Assembly: GCF_019145375.1 (NCBI RefSeq)
Contig: NZ_JAHSTX010000001.1
Location: 2,889,001-2,953,000 of the forward strand
Direction of reading: 5' to 3'
Source: Pseudomonas triticicola
GTDB lineage: Bacteria; Pseudomonadota; Gammaproteobacteria; Pseudomonadales; Pseudomonadaceae
Length of the DNA: 64,000 nucleotides
This document shows positions 53,783 through 64,000 of this stretch, in pieces. The notes below the pieces were generated by a model. It had not been told where the DNA came from and ran no database searches. It was given only the letters and a program-made list of their open reading frames with translations. The number at the start of each line of letters is the position of its first letter. Position 1 is the first letter of the stretch. The translations under genes were made by a program, and so were the position numbers.

Positions 53783-55123
53783 TTACTCAGCCGCAGGTTC
53801 AGCTGGCTTGCGACGCTTGAGCGGGGCCATGCCGTCGCTGCTGACAAGGGAATCCGGCTTCGGACGGTTGACGCTCTTGCGCTTGGTCGGCGTCTTGGCG
53901 GCGGTTTTCTTCTTGTCACCCTTGGCGTCGGTCTTTTTCTTTTTCACACCGACGGCTTTGCCCGAGGCCTTGACCTTTTTCGGCCCGCCGTAGGTGCCTT
54001 TGACTTCCTTGATCGTGCGGCGCTCGAAGCTCTGCTTCAGGTAGCGCTCGATGCTCGACATCAGGTTCCAGTCGCCGTGGCAGATCAGCGAGATCGCCAG
54101 GCCATCGTTGCCGGCACGGCCGGTACGACCGATACGGTGCACGTATTCGTCGCCGCTGCGCGGCATGTCGAAGTTGATCACCAGATCCAGACCGTCGACG
54201 TCCAGGCCACGGGCCGCGACGTCGGTCGCGACGAGGATCTTCACACCACCCTGCTTCAGACGATCGATCGCCAGTTTGCGATCCTTCTGGTCTTTCTCGC
54301 CGTGCAGCACGAACGCTTTGTATTCCTGGGCCACGAGGCGGCCGTAGATGCGGTCGGCCATGGCGCGGGTGTTGGTGAAGACGATGGCCTTCTGGTAGGT
54401 CTCGTTGGCCAGCAGCCAGTTCACAATCTGCTCTTTGTGCTGATTGTGGTCGGCGGTGATGATTTGCTGACGAGTCGTCGAGTTGAGCTGGCTGACCGCG
54501 TTGAGCTGCAAGTGCTCAGGGTTGTTCAGGACCTTGGCGATCATCTCGCGCAGGCCGGAACCGCCGGTGGTGGCGGAGAACAGCATGGTCTGCTGACGGT
54601 TCGGGCATTCATCGACCAGACGCTGCACATCTTCGGCGAAACCCATGTCGAGCATGCGGTCGGCTTCGTCGAGCACCAGCACTTCGACTTCTTTCAGGTC
54701 GAGGTTGCCAGCATTGAGTTGCTCGATCATCCGCCCCGGGGTGCCGATGAGGATGTCCGGCACTTTGCGCAACATGGCGGCCTGGACTTTGAAGTCTTCG
54801 CCGCCAGTGATCAGGCCGGACTTGATGAAGGTGAACTGCGAGAAGCGTTCGACTTCCTTCAAAGTCTGCTGGGCCAGCTCACGGGTCGGCAGCAGGATCA
54901 GCGTCTTGATGCTGACGCGGATCTTCGCCGGGCCGATCAGGCGATTGAGGATCGGCAGGACGAAAGCGGCGGTTTTGCCGCTACCGGTTTGCGCCGTCAC
55001 CCGCAGATCACGCCCCTGGAGCGCCAGCGGGATGGCCGCGGCTTGCACTGGCGTTGGCTCGACAAATTTCAGCTCGGCCACGGCTTTGAGCAGGCGTTCG
55101 TGCAGGGCGAATTGGGAAAACAC
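53783..55123 (-). CDS. DEAD-box RNA helicase (RhlE/SrmB-like)
   Basis: 446 residues. Q motif FVEPTPVQAAAIPLAL, Walker A AQTGSGKTAAF, DEAD box VLVLDEADRMLDMG, SAT motif MLFSATTG, and motif VI HRIGRTGRAG. The C terminus is a basic, Lys-rich tail (KKKKTDAKGDKKKTAAKTPT) that may bind RNA. GTG start giving VFSQFALHERLL fits the family best; the longer frame adds 27 unlikely residues. Likely roles are ribosome assembly or mRNA decay. Confidence 0.9.
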   Translation of the reverse strand: MFSQFALHERLLKAVAELKFVEPTPVQAAAIPLALQGRDLRVTAQTGSGKTAAFVLPILNRLIGPAKIRVSIKTLILLPTRELAQQTLKEVERFSQFTFIKSGLITGGEDFKVQAAMLRKVPDILIGTPGRMIEQLNAGNLDLKEVEVLVLDEADRMLDMGFAEDVQRLVDECPNRQQTMLFSATTGGSGLREMIAKVLNNPEHLQLNAVSQLNSTTRQQIITADHNQHKEQIVNWLLANETYQKAIVFTNTRAMADRIYGRLVAQEYKAFVLHGEKDQKDRKLAIDRLKQGGVKILVATDVAARGLDVDGLDLVINFDMPRSGDEYVHRIGRTGRAGNDGLAISLICHGDWNLMSSIERYLKQSFERRTIKEVKGTYGGPKKVKASGKAVGVKKKKTDAKGDKKKTAAKTPTKRKSVNRPKPDSLVSSDGMAPLKRRKPAEPAAE

Positions 55124-55314
55124 GGTTGCTACCTCGAAGATATGCAAAAAAACAGCTGCATAGGTTACCGGTTTCGAGCGCTCAGGCCGAGTTTCTTTGT
55201 GCAAACGCCGACAATCAGTGGTTTTTTTGTTGCCCGATTTGTCACTCGCTGCAATACACAGCGTCTTAAATGCTCTAATCGGCCCTCGCGTCTTACAGAA
55301 GAAATGTTTCGCTC

Positions 55315-56613
55315 ATGGATATCAAACAGCTCTGGCTCAAAGCCCAAGGCCTCTGGGGCACGCTCGAAGAGCACCCACTTCTGCAATCGGGACTGGCGCT
55401 GCTGGTGCTGCTGGTCATCGCGCTGGTGCTCGGACGGGTGGCGCGTTACCTGATCCTGCACGCCAGCCGCATGCTCGGCCGCCAACCGGCGCTGCACTGG
55501 ATCAACGACTTCCGCCACAACAAGGTGTTTCAGCGTCTGGCGCAGATGACGCCATCGCTGGTGATCCAGTTCGGCCTGCACCTGGTGCCGGAGCTGAGCA
55601 AAACCGCGATGAATTTTCTCGGCAACGTCGCCCTGGCGTTCACCATTCTGTTCCTGCTGCTGGCAGTCAGCGCCCTGCTCAATGCCTTGCTCGACATCTA
55701 TGCCCGCACCGAGCACGCCCGCACGCGCTCGATCAAAGGCTACGTGCAGCTGGCGAAAATGGTTTTGTACGTGTTCGGCGCGATCATCATCGTCGCTACA
55801 TTGATCGACCGTTCGCCGCTGTTGCTGCTGTCGGGTCTGGGTGCGATGTCGGCGGTGATTCTATTGGTCTACAAGGACACCCTGCTGTCGTTCGTCGCCA
55901 GCGTGCAGCTGACCAGCAACGACATGCTGCGCGTCGGCGACTGGATCGAAATGCCACAAGTCGGCGCCGATGGCGACGTCGTCGACATCACGTTGCACAC
56001 GGTCAAAGTGCAGAACTTTGATAAAACCATCGTCTCGATCCCGACCTGGCGGCTGATGTCCGAGTCGTTCAAGAACTGGCGCGGCATGCAGCAGTCCGGC
56101 GGTCGGCGGATCAAGCGCAGCCTGTTCATCGATGCCAGCGGCGTGCGCTTCATCCGCGACGACGAGGAAGAAAAGCTCTCCCAGGTGCACCTGCTGACCG
56201 ACTACATGGGCCGCAAGAAAGCCGAGCTCAAAGCCTGGAACGAAGCGCAGGGCAATGTCGCGGCGATGTCGGCCAACCGCCGTCGCATGACCAACATCGG
56301 CACCTTCCGCGCCTACGCACTGGCGTATCTGAAGAGTCATCCGGAGATTCAGCCGAACATGACCTGCATGGTCCGGCAGATGCAGACCACCGCGCAGGGC
56401 ATTCCGCTGGAAATCTACTGCTTCACCCGCACCACGGTGTGGGCCGATTATGAGCGGATTCAGGGGGATATTTTCGATTACCTGCTGGCGGTGTTGCCGG
56501 AGTTCGGGCTGAGCCTGTATCAGCAGCCGAGTGGCGGGGATTTGCGTTCGGGTTTGTTGCCGGCGGTGTTGGGCTCGGCGAGTATTGCGGAGCCGGAAAA
56601 ACACCTGATGTAA
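55315..56613 (+). CDS. MscS-family mechanosensitive channel (YbdG-like)
   Basis: 432 residues. Four to five N-terminal helices lead into the MscS pore helix and beta domain (GLGAMSAVILLVYKDTLLSF, LTSNDMLRVGDWIEMPQVGA, VSIPTWRLMSESFKNW). Two inserts and a C-terminal domain typical of the YbdG/MscM subgroup follow (YLKSHPEIQPNMTCMVRQMQ). Role: relief of hypo-osmotic stress. ATG gives MDIKQLWLKAQGLW. Confidence 0.9.
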   Translation: MDIKQLWLKAQGLWGTLEEHPLLQSGLALLVLLVIALVLGRVARYLILHASRMLGRQPALHWINDFRHNKVFQRLAQMTPSLVIQFGLHLVPELSKTAMNFLGNVALAFTILFLLLAVSALLNALLDIYARTEHARTRSIKGYVQLAKMVLYVFGAIIIVATLIDRSPLLLLSGLGAMSAVILLVYKDTLLSFVASVQLTSNDMLRVGDWIEMPQVGADGDVVDITLHTVKVQNFDKTIVSIPTWRLMSESFKNWRGMQQSGGRRIKRSLFIDASGVRFIRDDEEEKLSQVHLLTDYMGRKKAELKAWNEAQGNVAAMSANRRRMTNIGTFRAYALAYLKSHPEIQPNMTCMVRQMQTTAQGIPLEIYCFTRTTVWADYERIQGDIFDYLLAVLPEFGLSLYQQPSGGDLRSGLLPAVLGSASIAEPEKHLM

Positions 56614-56625
56614 CCCAAAGATCAA

Positions 56626-56716
56626 ATGTGGGAGCGAGCCTGTTCGCGAATGCAATGTGTCAGTCGACCCATACTTATCTGACCCAGCGCCTTCGCGAGC
56701 AGGCTCGCTCCCACAG
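56626..56716. repeat. REP pair (BIME), copy 9, one arm mutated
   Basis: TGTGGGAGCGAGCCTGTTCG (T for C in the first arm) is followed by a normal inverted arm CTTCGCGAGCAGGCTCGCTC. It lies between the convergent MscS and DMT genes. Confidence 0.88.
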
Positions 56717-56719
56717 GGG

Positions 56720-57586
56720 TTATGCGGCGGCCGGGGATTTGCGGATACCCAACCGGCTGATCCACACAGCCGCCAGAATCACACCCCCGCCAAGGAACAA
56801 CCGCCCCAGTTCCTCATGCTGATTCCAGATCAGCAGATTCAACAACAATCCCACCGGCACATGCAGGTTGTTCATCACCGCCAGGGTACCGCCGTTGACC
56901 ATGCACGCGCCCTTGTTCCACCAGTACAGGCCCAGCGCCGTCGACACCAGTCCGAGAAACAGCAACACGCCCCATTGCAGCGGCGCTTCCGGTAGAAAGT
57001 TCGACTTGCCGAACAACAGGAACGCTGGCAGCACAACCGCCAATGCACCGAGGTAGAAATAACCGAAGCGGCGGTAATGCGGCAGATCACTCGGATGCTT
57101 GGCCACCAGATGCTTGTACAACACTTGCCCGGCGGCGTAGGTGAAGTTGGCCAGTTGCAGCAGCAGAAAGCCCATGAAAAAGTCGGGACTGATGCTGTCG
57201 AAGCGAATCACCGCCGCACCGCCGACTGCCACCAGCGCAGCAACCAATGCCCACGGATTAAAGCGACGGTTCAGCGCGTCTTCGATCAACGTCACGTGCA
57301 GCGGCGTGAGAATGGTGAACAGCAACACCTCCGGCACCGTCAGCACACGGAAGCTCAGGTAAAGGCAGACGTAAGTCACCCCGAACTGCAACGCGCCGAT
57401 CAGCAACATGCCACGCATGAACGCCGGCTCCACCGAACGCCAGCGCGTCAATGGAATAAACACCAGCCCCGCCAGCACCACACGCACCAGCACCGCAAAG
57501 TAGCTGTCGACATGCCCTGCCAGGTACTCGCCGATCAGACTGAAGGAAAACGCCTGGATCAGCGTGACAAAAAGTAGATAGCCCAT
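56720..57586 (-). CDS. EamA/DMT-family transporter
   Basis: 288 residues, ten helices: YLLFVTLIQAFSFSLIGEYL at the start, and ALGLYWWNKGACMVNGGTLA late. This subgroup is often annotated as a carboxylate/amino acid/amine transporter, but the substrate is unknown. ATG gives MGYLLFVT; the longer frame runs into a REP. It is the last clear core gene before the AT-rich region, and the left neighbour of the integration zone. Confidence 0.86.
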   Translation of the reverse strand: MGYLLFVTLIQAFSFSLIGEYLAGHVDSYFAVLVRVVLAGLVFIPLTRWRSVEPAFMRGMLLIGALQFGVTYVCLYLSFRVLTVPEVLLFTILTPLHVTLIEDALNRRFNPWALVAALVAVGGAAVIRFDSISPDFFMGFLLLQLANFTYAAGQVLYKHLVAKHPSDLPHYRRFGYFYLGALAVVLPAFLLFGKSNFLPEAPLQWGVLLFLGLVSTALGLYWWNKGACMVNGGTLAVMNNLHVPVGLLLNLLIWNQHEELGRLFLGGGVILAAVWISRLGIRKSPAAA

Positions 57587-57664
57587 GCTCGCCTCGAAAA
57601 TCGAATGGCGGCGACGATAGCGGGTTTTGCGCCAGACCGCGAACCCACGGACAACACAGATCCC

Positions 57665-57754
57665 CTGTAGGAGTGAGCCTGCTCGCGATGGCGGTTGTTC
57701 AGACACATCAGTATTGACTGACACACCGCTTTCGCGAGCAGGCTCGCTCCCACA
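57665..57754. repeat. REP pair (BIME), copy 10, first arm diverged
   Basis: The left arm GTAGGAGTGAGCCTGCTCGC has two changes from the usual GTGGGAGCGAGCC form; the right arm CTTTCGCGAGCAGGCTCGCT is normal. It marks the last typical core-genome repeat before the island. Confidence 0.88.
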
Positions 57755-57785
57755 AGGAATTTGTGTTTTTCGTCAAATCGTGGGC

Positions 57786-57824
57786 AAAAAAAAGCCCGAT
57801 CTCGCTAAAGCGTTCAATCGGGCT
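57786..57824 (-). terminator. Orphan Rho-independent terminator
   Basis: Read on the minus strand: AGCCCGAT stem, inner CGCT-AA-AGCG hairpin, ATCGGGCT stem, then eight T. No ORF of normal size ends here on the minus strand, so it ends either a small RNA or a gene that was lost or displaced. The 8-bp outer stem with an uninterrupted T-run is convincing. Confidence 0.88.
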
Positions 57825-57915
57825 ACAGCACTCAGGAGCAAAAGTGCAAAGGGAGGTTCGATGCGCGTGGAACCTTGAAGGGGTTGCGCCATACCTGTGA
57901 CATACAAGATAAACA
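57786..57915 (-). ncRNA. Candidate small RNA or leftover transcript end
   Basis: Minus-strand unit ahead of the orphan terminator. It contains a hairpin GGTTC-N10-GAACC (57855-57874) followed by a C/T-rich single strand. A -10-like TATGAT lies at about 57917-57922; the -35 is weak. A 38-codon ORF starting MAQPLQGSTRIEPPF overlaps the terminator and is probably not translated. It is not a recognised RNA family to me. The 3' end of such a gene would be a usual integration target. Confidence 0.4.
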
Positions 57916-57941
57916 TCATACCCGTTACTTGTCGGCGAATG

Positions 57942-57970
57942 GACAGATGGGGCCTATACGTCCATCTGTC
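57942..57970. promoter_or_regulatory. 9-bp inverted repeat, operator or recombination-site candidate
   Basis: GACAGATGG (57942-57950) and CCATCTGTC (57962-57970) form a perfect inverted repeat with an 11-base spacer, just upstream (minus strand) of the candidate sRNA promoter and in the zone where base composition begins to fall. Tyrosine-recombinase core sites have this form, but so do repressor operators. Confidence 0.5.
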
Positions 57971-58021
57971 GCACTTTGCGGACTACAGACCCGGATGCCT
58001 CCATGTGGATGAATGGCCCAT

Positions 58022-58035
58022 GACATACTGTATGT
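58022..58035. promoter_or_regulatory. ACATAC-T-GTATGT palindrome, one of three GACATAC motifs
   Basis: GACATACTGTATGT contains a perfect 13-base palindrome. GACATAC also occurs at 57899-57905 and 58253-58259, both extended to GACATACAAG. Three copies in 360 bp is far more than chance predicts for a 7-mer. They may be recombinase arm sites at the island end. Confidence 0.45.
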
Positions 58036-58087
58036 AATGTGTCTGAATTTCCTGCGGGTGCTGGTTGGACTTTCACACCGTCGCTAG

Positions 58088-58267
58088 GTGCAAGCCATCA
58101 CAACCTTTAACAAGGCGGGGATTGAGGTGAGGCGCCTGAAGACCACCACGGAGATGAAGTAGGCGAACGAGTATTTGTACTCGTGGCAAATTCGAGATCC
58201 GGGCAACGCCATGCGAAGTTTCATTTTGCAGCAGTTTGAGACAATGATCGCAGACATACAAGGATGA
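58088..58267 (+). pseudogene. Decayed ORF fragment in the island border
   Basis: The reading frame from GTG at 58088 gives VQAITTFNKAGIEVRRLKTT then TEMK, an in-frame TAG at 58160-58162, and a further stretch ANEYLYSWQIRDPGNAMRS and more to the stop at 58265. It has protein-like composition on both sides of the stop but no start context. I do not recognise the source. The remaining 58268-58864 region has no convincing gene. Confidence 0.35.
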
Positions 58268-58864
58268 AACGACCTACGTCTATCCGGGCAATAACCGCGA
58301 CGCGCTCGGCCTGGTTCGTGCAACGGTCTAAGCCACTAATCTGTGGACAAGATCGAGCGGCTTCAGTCTTCAAATCATATATCTCTGCAATTGACCCTTC
58401 CACCGCAGGGGCTAGCAAGAATGAATCCAAAGCCCGTTTGTAGTATTGGGAACACGACCAAAGCTTCGCGCAGGCACCGAATTATTATGGTGATAAATAA
58501 AACTTATGGCGGGTTGAAAAAAAAACAGCCTTTCGACGGTTCGAGACCCTTGCCCCATCTAATTGACGATTCAGCTGAAGTCGCTTGTGTACGACCTCAT
58601 CGTCCAAAAGCGTTTTACAGCCTGTCATCGCTGCATTTGCTACAAAGATTCCACTGGGCACCAAGCCGCGCCGAACCGATTGATAAACTCGGTCAATGTT
58701 ATATGAGCCAGCTAGCATGCCACACGGACACTAAAGGTGAATACAGGATGTGGAAGTGGTGATGGAAGAATATTACCGGCGCAAACCCATCTGCTGTAGA
58801 CGAGAAGCTTGACTGTCAGCTTTTCAGACCTTACATTTGGTAACCACGGCGCTCTTCGCTCAAG
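58268..58864. other. About 600 bp with no convincing gene, between the border and ginD
   Basis: Intermediate GC. Two ORFs (58343-58762 plus; 58485-58718 minus, MLAGSYNIDRVYQSVRRG) overlap each other and have no family resemblance I can see. AAGCTTGACTGTCAGCTT at 58805-58822 is an imperfect inverted repeat about 40 nt beyond the ginD stop and may be its transcript-end hairpin. If GInt structure holds, this segment is all there is of the cargo and the 3' end. Confidence 0.5.
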
Positions 58865-59263
58865 TTAAGACTTTCTTCCGGACGGCGAAATGTCTGGCTT
58901 AACAGATTGCGGGCGATGCTCTTCCTTTTTTCGTAAGAACAATTCCTGCATAAGCATTAGGCATTGTTTACGGCTTCGCTCAAGATCAGCTTCAAGGCGT
59001 GCATTCTGAGCCTTACTCCTTTCGAGAGATTCTTTCAGTCGTTTAACTCTTTCAGAAGATGCGCAATTAGAAGCTTTTTGCTTACTCTGAGCAAGTTCTA
59101 TGTCTTTAATTAAGTTAACAAATACTGCACGACCAGCCTTGATAGCACTCGCATCTTTACCAGCCTCTAACGCAACATTTTTGCGAGTAATCTCGCTGCC
59201 TTTCCCGATTCTTATGGGCCGTCCATCAATTAAACGTTGTAGAGCTAGAAAATATTCGTTCAC
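58865..59263 (-). CDS. ginD: GinD-like small coiled-coil protein
   Basis: 132 residues. A short helix-turn-helix-like part (EITRKNVALEAGKDASAIK, about 24-42) is followed by a long coiled coil (ERVKRLKESLERSKAQNARL onward) and a charged tail. The GTG start overlaps the ginC stop (GTGA). GInt islands encode a fourth, small helix-loop-helix protein needed with the three recombinases. TnpC of Tn554 (about 125 aa) is similar in size and position. AT-rich codon use differs from the core. Confidence 0.78.
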   Translation of the reverse strand: MNEYFLALQRLIDGRPIRIGKGSEITRKNVALEAGKDASAIKAGRAVFVNLIKDIELAQSKQKASNCASSERVKRLKESLERSKAQNARLEADLERSRKQCLMLMQELFLRKKEEHRPQSVKPDISPSGRKS

Positions 59264-61146
59264 TTATCGTTCTCAATTTCAAGTATAGACACCAGGAACT
59301 TTTGCAAATCTTCCAGTTGGCCTTTCTCTGTTCTGAACTCAACTGAGTCAGCAGGAAGTGAAAGAACCAACTCCTCTTGCGCATCAATCACTGGGATTAA
59401 TTTGCTTTTTTTAATTACCCCTTGTGAGCACTCGGTGCATACCACGACTGAGCCATGCGCTTTCTCTTTGCACGCTGACGTAGTCGTGCAACCACCTAGT
59501 ATGGTTTCAGAGTAAGCCATCAACCCATTTTTTACCGCATATGCAGTTTCCTCGTAGACAAGTCGTATGTTACCCCCCAGAGCAGGCTTAATGTTTTTTT
59601 CAATATATTTACCTCTTGGCCCGTAAAGCTTTTCAGTAGAAAATAAAACGTCTTGAACATACAAACAAGCGTCCATCGATAAGCTTACATCATCATATAT
59701 CAAACGGATATGATCCGGCTCTCCACCAAACTCCACACGCGCACTTCCCGCCTCCCCATAAGCAATAGATGTTGACATTTTGAAATGATGAAACTGTCTT
59801 TTAAGCGCAGGAAACCCGGCTAATCCAGAAGCTGTACCATAAATTCCGAATGATCGTCGAAATTGGTGTGTCGTAAGGTTCCATGGTTCCCCAACAATTA
59901 ACTTCGGATGAGCATCGGTTTCACCAAGCGGCAGCAAATACTTTAAATCAAGATAATCTGCCTCCTCAAATACTACAGGCAACAGATATTTATCTACGTT
60001 ACATGGGATCAAACTCTTGGACACTTGAGGAAAAGGGCCTCCAGGAGCCTTACTTGAAAGAGGCGAAAACGTTGTAGAAATAAACAACAAAGCATCCACG
60101 GACGTTTTAGACCCATATGTTTTATAGATGATTCTCGACAAAATTCTAGCAGCCTTTACAGCTTTAACACCAAGATTCGATGTCACCCAAGTTACGGGTG
60201 TAGAGACATCCTTTTTCTTTGCAGGAAGGCCTGTTATGGTACGAATTTCCAAATCGCGAATATATATTCTCCCAAGGCACCCATACCGGAGTTCCAAGGC
60301 TTCAGAATGACGAGCAGCAGAAAAGATTTGGATTAAACATTTTGCCGAATATTGCACTAATGTCAGGAAAAGAGAGAACCCCGAGATTTGGTTAATTTTA
60401 AATAGCTGCTGAATCTTCTCAAGATTGTTGTCTAACACGGCCTCATCAAATGTCAAATCTAACGCACCATTCGCACCAGCTAATATTTCTTGTCTTTCCT
60501 TGCAGCGCGCATAAAACTTGCTCGCTCCCACACGACAAGCAAACCTTGATATATCTCTGCAATTATGAAGAAATAAATCCAAGATCTCCTCAAATTGGAA
60601 AGTTTTAATGCTCAAAATTCGGGGTGGTATTGCCAATGTCTGAGCTTTCTCAAAATTTGTCACAAGATCACGGATAAATGGGATCAACTCATATGGAAGA
60701 TCCAGCTTCAGCTCCTCATGCATCCGAATCAAAAGCCCACTTAAATTTTGAGCCGAGGCTCCTGGTGCGGTTTTTGCGAAGCTAATGAGATGGTGGGGCG
60801 TAGTTAACATCGTGTGAAATGGGATGTCGTTGTCCGCACAATAACCTCCCATCTTTTTAACTAACTTATAATAAGATTTCACAGTGCCAAATCTGATCGA
60901 TTCACCCTTGTGCTTTCCCTCCACTATAATTTTTAGCACATCCCTTGCTAGTTTAGTGCTATCAACATAAAAACGATCCCTCGCTTGAAACAATCTGCCT
61001 ACATGTAAATTTACATTTTCGCTGAGTCTTGTTCTAAGGTGCTCCATGCGCCAGATATCATCGTCTTTGAAGGACAGCGGGGCACCCTCTTCGTTATATG
61101 AAACCACGTCTCCATCTTCCCTCTCGGGAGAAAATACAACCTGCAT
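59260..61146 (-). CDS. ginC: GinC-like tyrosine recombinase
   Basis: 628 residues. Catalytic motifs: Arg in SAARHSEALELRYG (near 280), HxxR in TTHQFRRSFGIY, and a late His-Tyr pair in RQFHHFKMSTSIAYGEAG. A C-terminal Cys cluster follows (GGCTTTSACKEK and VVCTECSQGV), possibly a zinc knuckle. Long N-terminal domain with little recognisable similarity. It starts 9 nt after the ginB stop and overlaps ginD by 4 bp. Confidence 0.82.
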   Translation of the reverse strand: MQVVFSPEREDGDVVSYNEEGAPLSFKDDDIWRMEHLRTRLSENVNLHVGRLFQARDRFYVDSTKLARDVLKIIVEGKHKGESIRFGTVKSYYKLVKKMGGYCADNDIPFHTMLTTPHHLISFAKTAPGASAQNLSGLLIRMHEELKLDLPYELIPFIRDLVTNFEKAQTLAIPPRILSIKTFQFEEILDLFLHNCRDISRFACRVGASKFYARCKERQEILAGANGALDLTFDEAVLDNNLEKIQQLFKINQISGFSLFLTLVQYSAKCLIQIFSAARHSEALELRYGCLGRIYIRDLEIRTITGLPAKKKDVSTPVTWVTSNLGVKAVKAARILSRIIYKTYGSKTSVDALLFISTTFSPLSSKAPGGPFPQVSKSLIPCNVDKYLLPVVFEEADYLDLKYLLPLGETDAHPKLIVGEPWNLTTHQFRRSFGIYGTASGLAGFPALKRQFHHFKMSTSIAYGEAGSARVEFGGEPDHIRLIYDDVSLSMDACLYVQDVLFSTEKLYGPRGKYIEKNIKPALGGNIRLVYEETAYAVKNGLMAYSETILGGCTTTSACKEKAHGSVVVCTECSQGVIKKSKLIPVIDAQEELVLSLPADSVEFRTEKGQLEDLQKFLVSILEIENDK

Positions 61147-61155
61147 ATCAAAATC

Positions 61156-63075
61156 TCATACTAGGTCAAGTTTAGATAGTAGATGAAGCTTACTCTGCCA
61201 GTAGGAATCAAGCGCTTGAAACTCATCGATTTCGCATTCAACTTTCCGAACAAGAGCATTAATTTCTGGCGAAATGTTTTTGATCGCCTCTAAAAAATCA
61301 TCTAGTCGCTGAAGTGTTAATCCTCCAGTACTCTCGAAAGCGTTTCCAGACCTAGACAGGGGCATGATTTTATTTAGAAAGTACTTCATACTCACCAGCT
61401 TTCGAATATCGGCTTCAATCGCATGCGTGAGGAAATTCTCACAAAACAAGCACCCTAAAAAGTTCCTACAGTCAGGAGCAATAGTATTAATCACTTTTAT
61501 GAGCTGTGGACTACCGGGTTCTCCACATACACCCGCTGGCGTTAGCACAGCATTAGATCTGCCTTCGAGCGTAAGCCCTTGATCATAAGCTTTTATGAAA
61601 CGTGAAATTTCCAGAATGGACTCTTCACACGCCTGCTCCATGTAATTTGAAATAGCAGTCGTCTCGGTATGTTGAAGAGCGTCGACAGCAATCTTAAAAC
61701 TAGCAAGCTTACTCACATTATCAAATTTATACTTTCGCCACTGACGAAACGAAATAGATTTAATCTTAGGATAAAAGTATGAGCGAACTTTTCTATAGTA
61801 TTCTAAAATGGAATTATCAATTAAAGGTTCACCAATGCACAATCCGTTGGAATCCATCGCAACGAATAAGTATTTATAATTACTCCCATTGCAGATTTCT
61901 TTTCTCAACTTTATAAAACGCTTGAACTCTTTAAGATGAACCACAGTGATATTGAACGTAACCACCTTATTGCCCGCCCTAGCTTTCAAACCTCGAAAGC
62001 CGACTTCAATTCTTTCACCTATAAAATCCTCATCAGCCCACTCTGCTTGGAATTCAAGATCGCGTAAAATGGACTCATTCATTCCAGTATTTGCGATAAA
62101 CATAGTTAAATATGCGAACTGAGCCAAATTCATAAGACGGCGACGGGATATGCATTGAAGATCCGCATTGCACTCTTCAATAAGATCAATGGCTTCTTGG
62201 TAATGACAACGAAGAGCATACTTTTTCTTAGATACATCAACAGAACCGAGTGGATACTTTTCCATCATCTCATCGACTCTGTTGACTCTTCCAACTTTAT
62301 AATTCCAAAGAATATTTCTCTCCAGCGTCGGCTTGCCAGTACGTAATAATTCGTCGGTAGCACAAAACTGTCTTATTGGAAAAAGCCAGACCTCTTCTTT
62401 GGGCAATTTTAAGCTCATGGGATATTGCCCAGGTTTTTTTATGAGATCATACAATCCCGAGAAAATCATGAATGCTAGGGTCAACGACTCCTCAACCAAC
62501 GCCTCCTCTGGAGAAATGGTCGCAGACTTTTTAGCTTTCGCGATGTCTCCTTGTAGTTTTTCAACCGGATATTTTCTATAGTTGAGACCACTACAAAATG
62601 CATCCATTATGTTTGAGGCGGAACTTAGTCTGGAGTCGATACTTTCGTAATGCGACCCATCGGGATGACGTAATCCGTGCACATAAGTACGAAATTTCGC
62701 ATAAGTCTCGTTCAGGAATTCTGGTGACTTGAAGGCGTTACTCTCCAACTCATCGAATTTTTCTACCATACTAATGAGCTCTCGACACTCTCTGACGAAT
62801 GTTTTCTCGCTGAGACCAGAAAGATACCGCTCAGTATTGTTCTTTAGCCAATATGAAATCGCTAATCCGCGTTCGACCTCGAAGGTCGTATCATCCACCT
62901 CACGTTGAGCCTTACCGGATTTTTTTTCGCGTTTGGAGTAGGTCAATGCTCCCAAATCGAGCGCCTTCTTATCTGCGATCATCACTGTTTGGGATATAGA
63001 GCAACTATTTAAAAGTGTATAAACATTATCTACACAAAAATCCTTTAATGTTAGACATACCACTTCACGCCCCAT
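61156..63075 (-). CDS. ginB: GinB-like tyrosine recombinase
   Basis: 639 residues. C-terminal catalytic signatures are visible: SFRQWRKYKFDNVSKLASFK, LQHTETTAISNYMEQA (His and the nucleophile Tyr) and, after it, NFLGCLFCENFLTHAIEADI, a Cys/His motif seen also in Tn554-like TnpB-type recombinases. The first Arg is likely within LAQFAYLTMFIANTGMNES, but the Arg itself is not obvious; the canonical residue may be degenerate. Starts 9 nt after the ginA stop. Confidence 0.8.
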   Translation of the reverse strand: MGREVVCLTLKDFCVDNVYTLLNSCSISQTVMIADKKALDLGALTYSKREKKSGKAQREVDDTTFEVERGLAISYWLKNNTERYLSGLSEKTFVRECRELISMVEKFDELESNAFKSPEFLNETYAKFRTYVHGLRHPDGSHYESIDSRLSSASNIMDAFCSGLNYRKYPVEKLQGDIAKAKKSATISPEEALVEESLTLAFMIFSGLYDLIKKPGQYPMSLKLPKEEVWLFPIRQFCATDELLRTGKPTLERNILWNYKVGRVNRVDEMMEKYPLGSVDVSKKKYALRCHYQEAIDLIEECNADLQCISRRRLMNLAQFAYLTMFIANTGMNESILRDLEFQAEWADEDFIGERIEVGFRGLKARAGNKVVTFNITVVHLKEFKRFIKLRKEICNGSNYKYLFVAMDSNGLCIGEPLIDNSILEYYRKVRSYFYPKIKSISFRQWRKYKFDNVSKLASFKIAVDALQHTETTAISNYMEQACEESILEISRFIKAYDQGLTLEGRSNAVLTPAGVCGEPGSPQLIKVINTIAPDCRNFLGCLFCENFLTHAIEADIRKLVSMKYFLNKIMPLSRSGNAFESTGGLTLQRLDDFLEAIKNISPEINALVRKVECEIDEFQALDSYWQSKLHLLSKLDLV

Positions 63076-63084
63076 TAGCAGACC

Positions 63085-64000
63085 CTACTCTTTTCCATAC
63101 ATGATTGACTCAACATGCTTTTCATATGTTACTTGGGCGTCATACGCTGCGCCGGCGTCTTCATAATGTTTAAAATAGTTCATAGTTGTCTCCAACCTAC
63201 TGTGACACATTCGTCTTTTTACGTAGTTCAGTGCAGATGACAGGGTTCGCTCACCATCATTAACCTGCTCCATTAATTCATTCAAGAGCCCCATACCAAA
63301 TGTGGCACGTAAATCATGAAAGGAGAAATCGATTGTTTTCCCTTCAGCCTCTAAAATTTTAGATTTCAGACCCATAAGATACGTCCTTACCGATCCGCCA
63401 TTAATCGCCTCAGGGGTGGTAGCATAGTTAGGATCTAACCTAGATATATAATAGGGCTTCGCAGATGTCGTTAGAAACACGTAACTTTGTTTGTTACTCT
63501 CATAGCCGCTTCTAGACAGTCGATCTAAATATCTTTTAGATCGCACATAGACACCTAGCCTTTTATGAAGCCACAAGGGAATAAAGATCGTTATTGATTT
63601 GTTTTTTTTAGTATCGATTAGGGAACCGCCTCCGCACTTAGTAGGAATTAATCGTGTGCTTTCGTACTCTCTTACGCATATATCACCTACTCTCATCGTC
63701 AAAATTGTTTGAATTCGTGCGCCACTAGTCAATGCGATAGCAAAAATCAGCATCATCTCTACATTGCCGTTATTGGCAAGTGCGCGCAACACAGACTCAA
63801 CCTCATGCGGAAGTAAAGGACGAAGTTTTCCCCCATCATTAATTGTGCCTAGGTCAACAGAACCCGCATGCTTGATTCGCAAATCATCTGTGATAATTTC
63901 TTTCCAAACCGTGTTCCCCCCGTCATCTAAATAACTTACATGGCGGATTTGGTCGATCCAGGTCGGAAATTGCGGGCGAAAGTCTGGATCATTTTTTTTC
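63085..64000 (-). CDS. ginA: GinA-like tyrosine recombinase, N terminus beyond the window
   Basis: At least 304 residues are visible; the frame stays open to the window edge (KKNDPDFRPQFPTWIDQIRH upstream of the first Met-like codon), so the start is outside. Catalytic residues: Arg in LTSGARIQTILTMRVG, HxxR in FSFHDLRATFGMG, and His plus nucleophile Tyr in MCHSRLETTMNYFKHY. It is a phage-integrase-like enzyme and probably the first gene of the operon. Low GC as for ginB-D. Confidence 0.82.
   Translation of the reverse strand, partial: KKNDPDFRPQFPTWIDQIRHVSYLDDGGNTVWKEIITDDLRIKHAGSVDLGTINDGGKLRPLLPHEVESVLRALANNGNVEMMLIFAIALTSGARIQTILTMRVGDICVREYESTRLIPTKCGGGSLIDTKKNKSITIFIPLWLHKRLGVYVRSKRYLDRLSRSGYESNKQSYVFLTTSAKPYYISRLDPNYATTPEAINGGSVRTYLMGLKSKILEAEGKTIDFSFHDLRATFGMGLLNELMEQVNDGERTLSSALNYVKRRMCHSRLETTMNYFKHYEDAGAAYDAQVTYEKHVESIMYGKE

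Follow-up and report, generated by a model that had tools for sequence, protein, structure and literature searches.

We analysed a stretch of 64,000 nucleotides of the Pseudomonas triticicola genome (assembly GCF_019145375.1, contig NZ_JAHSTX010000001.1, positions 2,889,001 to 2,953,000), called the window below, whose right edge cuts a four-gene recombinase operon within a large genomic island. The operon runs on the minus strand from G000 2953470 to 2947865, G000 being our label for this genome, and its genes, listed here from the inner to the outer side of the window, code for proteins of 461, 639, 628 and 132 amino acids in the order of transcription:

58865..59263, minus strand: srap-like gene ('ginD'), 132 amino acids, with a coiled-coil C terminus
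59260..61146, minus strand: intB-like gene ('ginC'), 628 amino acids, the third protein
61156..63075, minus strand: tfp-like gene ('ginB'), 639 amino acids, the second protein
63085..64000 and on past the window to G000 2953470, minus strand: intA-like gene ('ginA'), 461 amino acids, TTG start

The genes are separated by gaps of 9 and 9 nucleotides and then joined by one 4-nucleotide GTGA overlap. The operon has a GC content of 0.418, with 40-42% in single-kb bins; most of the core beside it is at about 60%. It lies inside a 4.94-Mb contig of a 5.82-Mb host genome. A sequence-only reading made earlier had described these open reading frames, their spacings, the overlap and the AT-richness, and each was found where it had been placed. 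That reading also took the first three products to be tyrosine recombinases, which domain searches supported for the first alone: the IntA-like protein matched Pfam Phage_integrase (E 2.6e-8), and proteins 2 and 3 matched nothing in Pfam at E ≤ 1 and nothing in NCBIfam above a curated cut-off. We regard proteins 2 and 3 as recombinases because their catalytic residues align and, for protein 3, also because its structure model weakly resembles Cre in Foldseek (lowest E 5.5e-3, query TM 0.25, no hit at E ≤ 0.001). The IntB model behind this match was of moderate quality (mean pLDDT 72); the one for Tfp, with a mean pLDDT of 49, was poor and was left aside.

To place these residues in context, we aligned 26 operons, comprising 20 Pseudomonas loci, five plasmid operons and the present one. 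The first protein carries R252, K288, H385, R388 and Y432 in 26/26 operons and H423 in 24/26. The third is likewise complete here (R279, K310, H427, R430, H454 and Y463), with H454 conserved in 25/26 operons and the other five in all 26. The second protein lacks the first catalytic arginine (Arg-I) in every one of the 26 operons, the present one having N333 at this position, and it is usually also without the box II histidine. It retains R447 and Y478 throughout (26/26), and is thus less degenerate than the wording of PMC10214605 would suggest. Ten further operons form a divergent lineage (L128-L132, L134, L135, L137, L142 and L143) in which the first protein is short and XerC/D-like (378-395 amino acids); the gene order is the same, and the catalytic pattern at these positions is found in 10/10. 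The second protein therefore lacks Arg-I in all 36 aligned operons.

Both larger proteins carry a four-cysteine cluster in the C-terminal part. In the second it is C-x18-C-x5-C-x2-C (C517, C536, C542 and C545) and in the third C-x5-C-x10-C-x2-C (C553, C559, C570 and C573). The motifs named in the sequence-only reading, CLFC and GGC...CTEC, are indeed present, but their description as added parts does not hold, as both clusters occur in 26/26 operons, save for one missing C573, and in all ten operons of the divergent lineage, which makes them invariant or nearly so across 36 operons. We think that these C-terminal tails of Tfp and IntB are probably contact modules that would bind metal. Neither 'cysteine' nor 'zinc' is used in the main text of PMC5385486 or PMC10214605, the papers that define the two classes and to which our literature search on this feature was confined.

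The operon belongs to an island of 71,895 bp (G000 2946892-3018786, GC content 0.504), whose limits we set by comparison with unoccupied sites in relatives. On the left, the sequence shared with relatives extends to window position 57891, and the right flank resumes at G000 3018793, so that the left end of the island lies at window position 57892 and the right end about 66 kb past the window. The proposal that the window runs into a genomic island, with the operon near an integration boundary, was thereby borne out. The features that define the borders are the following:

57886..57891, plus strand: 6-bp spacer GCGCCA beside the left core, also present in relatives' empty sites (attB), including those of genomes G098 and G213
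57892..57945, plus strand: left end (attL), with core TACCTGTGAC, degenerate repeat TACCCGTTAC at +27 and TGGACA at +48
57892..58864, no strand: spacer of 973 bp from the left end to the srap-like gene
G000, ending at 3018786: right core GTCACAGGTA, followed by the footprint GGGTGC at 3018787-3018792
56720..57724, minus strand: transporter gene of the host flank, the region downstream of which is conserved in relatives up to 57891

The sample of empty sites comprised 19 loci from relatives (L016-L034), 18 of which contain both flanks, the conserved left segment and the one on the azoR side. The flanks of 15 loci meet as though the element and GGGTGC, and nothing else, had been left out, 13 of them without any offset and two with mismatches at the seam. 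Three other loci differ by 16-20 nucleotides at the seam, and L033 gave no match. The empty site of the closest relative seen, G098, reads GGGGTTGCGCCAGGTCACT, and the occupied site in G000 reads GGGGTT-GCGCCA-(TACCTGTGAC ... GTCACAGGTA)-GGGTGC-GGTCACTAG, with the element in parentheses. The element thus sits beside GCGCCA, with the transporter gene on one side and an azoR-like gene on the other. TACCTGTGAC and GTCACAGGTA, at its two ends, are inverted repeats that match at 12 of 13 bases, and the 6-bp spacers differ between the two ends (GCGCCA on the left, GGGTGC on the right). A tRNA target was also considered and set aside, with no tRNA in the window or in L011-L014. Among the genomes listed for the same attB, only G000, judged by eye, has a very large gap within one contig, and several have gaps of about 1.6-2.5 kb. 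In four further cases the site is split between contigs: three of these contigs stop within about 0.5 kb, and the fourth genome, G105, has other DNA inserted to the left of attB, in which about 19 kb read on each side gave no match to a core gene.

In published work, elements of the SE class have the gene order intA-tfp-intB-srap with a degenerate Tfp, imperfect inverted-repeat ends of 13-19 bp and a 6-bp spacer (PMC10214605). The features by which SE termini are recognised there, a split attB, inverted repeats at the joint and a 6-bp spacer, are all found here, with the split attB retained at both ends, and we count this in favour of an SE-type element. To ask which end is attL, we used nine loci of the sister clade as reference ends (L077, L078, L080-L085 and L087). 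These ends read [TC]AC..GTGA, with a second repeat 27-28 nucleotides further on (degenerate, GGAG, in L081) and TGGAC, TTGAC or TAGAC at +47 to +51. The left end of the island has this layout, with the second repeat at +27 as GTTA and TGGAC at +48. The right end has a single core with TGGAC at +21. It resembles the only right end readable among the sisters, that of a roughly 54-kb element in G153, where there is one core and TGGAC is at +23. In SEs as described in PMC10214605, the 6 bp of attB remain beside the attL core and the 6 bp of the donor beside attR. We therefore take the left end as attL, because both the double-repeat layout and the attB-derived GCGCCA are on that side. When 81 kb were scored with a matrix built from eight sites in mscS, the right end came top and the left end took seventh place.

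The operon and its relatives were followed in several searches. A search with the IntB-like protein matched 60/298 Pseudomonas genomes, and the four-gene order was found in all 20 loci taken from these; among further loci the order was intact in 14/16, the exceptions being one with an interrupted third gene and one with the first gene only. An order that recurs across so many loci is more than chance. A second Pseudomonas search matched 51/219 genomes, weak matches included, and a class-wide search with an IntA profile matched 4/274, the genome itself included. The first two rates are near the 18.6% of Pseudomonas replicons reported to carry SEs (10.4% for GInts; PMC10214605), a likeness that is only suggestive, as replicons and genomes are different units. 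Close relatives of the operon were not found by search in genome contigs or viral contigs and were seen only as proteins (P0001-P0005 and P0009-P0013). In the IntB tree, the clade of the operon with P0001-P0005 is sister (99/98) to a clade of operons in the mscS region. The sister clade owns the matching ends, and we count this relationship in favour of the reading given below. A further operon lineage (L096, L138 and L140) apparently lies in a comM/yifB-type gene, to judge from the open reading frame just upstream of intA.

Named SEs were also recognised by profiles of the four proteins. All four matched in order in SE-Pda04Ya311 (on pAQU1, recognised by blaGMA-1; E 5.1e-33, 9.6e-22, 1.5e-41 and 1.3e-13) and in SE-6945 (E 1.8e-48, 2.1e-9, 2.6e-35 and 1.5e-5), the E-values referring to very small search sets. 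Compared with SEs as described in PMC10214605 and PMC9345347, the present element is alike in gene order, degenerate second protein, inverted-repeat ends, 6-bp spacers and Pseudomonas-type host. It differs in size, the largest SE published there being 58,529 bp long and this one 71.9 kb, and in the orientation of its core: in SEs the operon is found at the end with motif C (attL) and intA adjoins that end, whereas here it is near attL but reversed. The sister operons have the same attL layout and differ in having intA outermost, with 8/9 in mscS, which is another attB. By their description in PMC10214605, Tn554 and RIT elements share the adjacency of several tyrosine recombinases; Tn554 has no counterpart of Tfp, and RIT recombinases are 315-410 amino acids long and all keep the tyrosine. 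We place the element with SEs because of its gene order, inverted-repeat ends and 6-bp spacers, and call it an SE-type variant and not a regular SE because srap, not intA, is outermost.

We thus read the island as a 71.9-kb integrative element of SE type whose four-gene core is reversed in the present copy, a reading to which we assign a probability of about 0.72. In such an element, the core would form a circle in which a 6-bp spacer links both inverted-repeat ends, and this circle would then insert beside GCGCCA between the transporter and azoR-like genes. IntA and IntB would be the likely cutting enzymes, Tfp a partner that binds the core site without cutting activity, and Srap an auxiliary factor. 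The core may have moved this island, may still be able to move it and may do so by a strand-biased copy-out route.

Several observations weigh against this reading. The orientation of the operon departs from that of both SEs and GInts as these are described. In the IntB tree the named SEs have long branches and fall in the half that does not contain the present clade, and only three of the four profiles match in SE-6283, the second protein of which has no match to the Tfp profile. An attR of the sister clade could be read in one locus only, that of G153. The composite end pattern, which is present at the two ends of the island only, is modest alone (in 60 first-order Markov simulations its hits averaged 0.55 and numbered at most 3), so that it is its coincidence with independently mapped borders that carries weight. 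Finally, the same gene order occurs on Betaproteobacterial plasmids, as in the complete same-order operon on plasmid pPT365 of Paraburkholderia terrae, whose four proteins are 26-36% identical to those here; the text of PMC10214605 reports no Tfp or Srap outside the Gammaproteobacteria.

The last point bears on the label ginABCD, which the sequence-only reading had given to the operon. The element could be a GInt in the published sense, working by a circle formed at imperfect att repeats; the division between SEs and GInts, which PMC10214605 treats as separate groups, would then be finer than the sequences justify. The four-gene plan and the size are the same, the named SEs lie far from the present clade in the IntB tree, and the plasmid occurrence would agree with GInts, which are reported in Betaproteobacteria and Pseudomonas (PMC10214605). 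GInts as described in PMC5385486 also share three recombinase-type proteins with a small fourth one, a position near an end and a large, variable cargo. By the same description, however, GinA and GinB are complete and it is the third protein, GinC, that lacks the first arginine, whereas here the third is complete and the second lacks it in 36/36 operons. The att sites of GInts are imperfect direct repeats of 10-17 nucleotides, whereas the ends found here are inverted repeats with 6-bp spacers; and ginABCD lies at the 5' end with the ginA side abutting it and the cargo following ginD, whereas here it is the fourth gene that faces the nearest end. A scan of divergent operons for an authentic GInt found none at ssb among 16 loci, and the order there too was of SE type. 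We consider a GInt in this sense unlikely. The label is partly right in that the four-gene plan is shared by what is probably a sibling class; the gene order, inverted-repeat ends and 6-bp spacers fit SEs.

The reversed orientation was examined against the sister clade. The operon, close to attL, is directed towards that end: srap is outermost and ends 0.97 kb from the island end, and intA starts 6.6 kb inside it. By comparison, intA is nearest the readable end in 9/9 sister-clade loci, a tenth member, L079, being cut by its contig. The distance from intA to the end is about 75-80 nucleotides in short-leader loci such as L081 and 1.1-1.7 kb in L077, L080, L082 and L087, with no open reading frame of at least 100 amino acids in between. 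For the 973-bp spacer of the present element, neither plasmids nor 249 Pseudomonas genomes yielded a relative.

One explanation for this orientation is that the island was moved by another core that has since been lost, the four genes being a passenger or a later, smaller SE of opposite orientation near the left end. The operon does face the wrong way for the island, and it is AT-richer (GC content 0.418 against 0.504). An attL-type site in the needed orientation is nevertheless absent upstream of intA, where the best candidate scores 6.9 bits against 13.8-19.1 for eight known sites, and the operon is flanked by neither direct nor inverted repeats. A small nested SE spanning only the operon was rejected on these grounds. 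On the opposite strand upstream of intA there is one site of 11.6 bits (10.9 for the island's own left end), without TGGAC. An attB-like sequence at 58778-58791 (GATGGGTTTGCGCC; GGCGCAAACCCATC), 74 bp past srap and matching inverted attB at 12/14 positions, was also discarded as not significant, since 33/300 shuffles were as good. In this genome the IntB-like protein and the IntA profile each match the operon alone, no other SE core having been found, and the island ends match those of the operon's sister clade. A lost core is in our view improbable.

Alternatively, the right end could be the functional intA-side end, 65 kb of cargo having been gained between attL and intA, with the srap side near attR. 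On the minus strand the order would then be right end, cargo, intA-tfp-intB-srap and left end, and no inversion would be required. Yet it is the left end that has the attL double-repeat layout, and the 6 bp of attB are on the left, as published SEs require of attL (PMC10214605), which makes this quite improbable. That the orientation is an assembly artefact is very improbable: the arrangement is known from one genome only, but the locus is inside a 4.94-Mb contig and no misleading repeats were found around the operon.

If the island is an SE-type element, the orientation of its core would most simply have arisen by an inversion. One known SE has srap alone reversed, and an intact attL-intA-tfp-intB layout has been suggested to be essential for movement (both PMC10214605). 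Given a reversed core, either the present copy may be immobile or this rule may not be general. It is also possible, though we think it unlikely, that the reversed core is the working state of a distinct SE branch, transcribed towards attL and with its cargo upstream of intA.

The cargo and the landing zone were inspected as well. Cargo of defence type comprises the pair of genes adjoining intA (L011:10667-12294), with PADLOC matches to beta (5.3e-21) and to cll (5.7e-38), and, further right, a reverse transcriptase that matches PADLOC RT_UG17 (L012:3741-5105; 1.9e-156). Regulators and TonB-receptor-like, umuDC-like and MvaT-like open reading frames were read from translations in the right part of the island. 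The island also contains a further tyrosine recombinase of 348 amino acids, not of the SE core type (L012:8916-9962; PF00589, 1.8e-9). One open reading frame matches RNase_T (L012:12616-13227; 2.4e-13) and another, about 5 kb away, is by eye of a similar exonuclease type (L012:7283-7693); the two are possibly an internal duplication. The segment rhlE-mscS-transporter-azoR (window 53783-57891) is a repeated landing zone. Besides the present element, 8 of the 20 related Pseudomonas loci are inserted there, all at one point in mscS (window-equivalent 56015-56017), with L084, of the same clade, elsewhere. The mscS gene of G000 itself is intact, and the present element lies 1.9 kb beyond the mscS insertion point.

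Defence and resistance genes are carried by elements of the SE and GInt types, in which no transfer genes have been recognised, and the division of work among their three recombinase-type proteins is of interest. What is new here is a core that faces attL, in contrast to its sisters, a size above the published SE maximum and cysteine tails conserved throughout the family. The locus offers precisely mapped ends, a footprint of 6 bp and an operon in an unusual orientation, all directly testable, as is the family-wide pattern of one subunit without Arg-I and two subunits with a four-cysteine tail in 36 operons. If the reversed core were a working state, an attL-intA-tfp-intB layout would not be a general requirement, and inversion of the core could switch or lock the movement of such elements.

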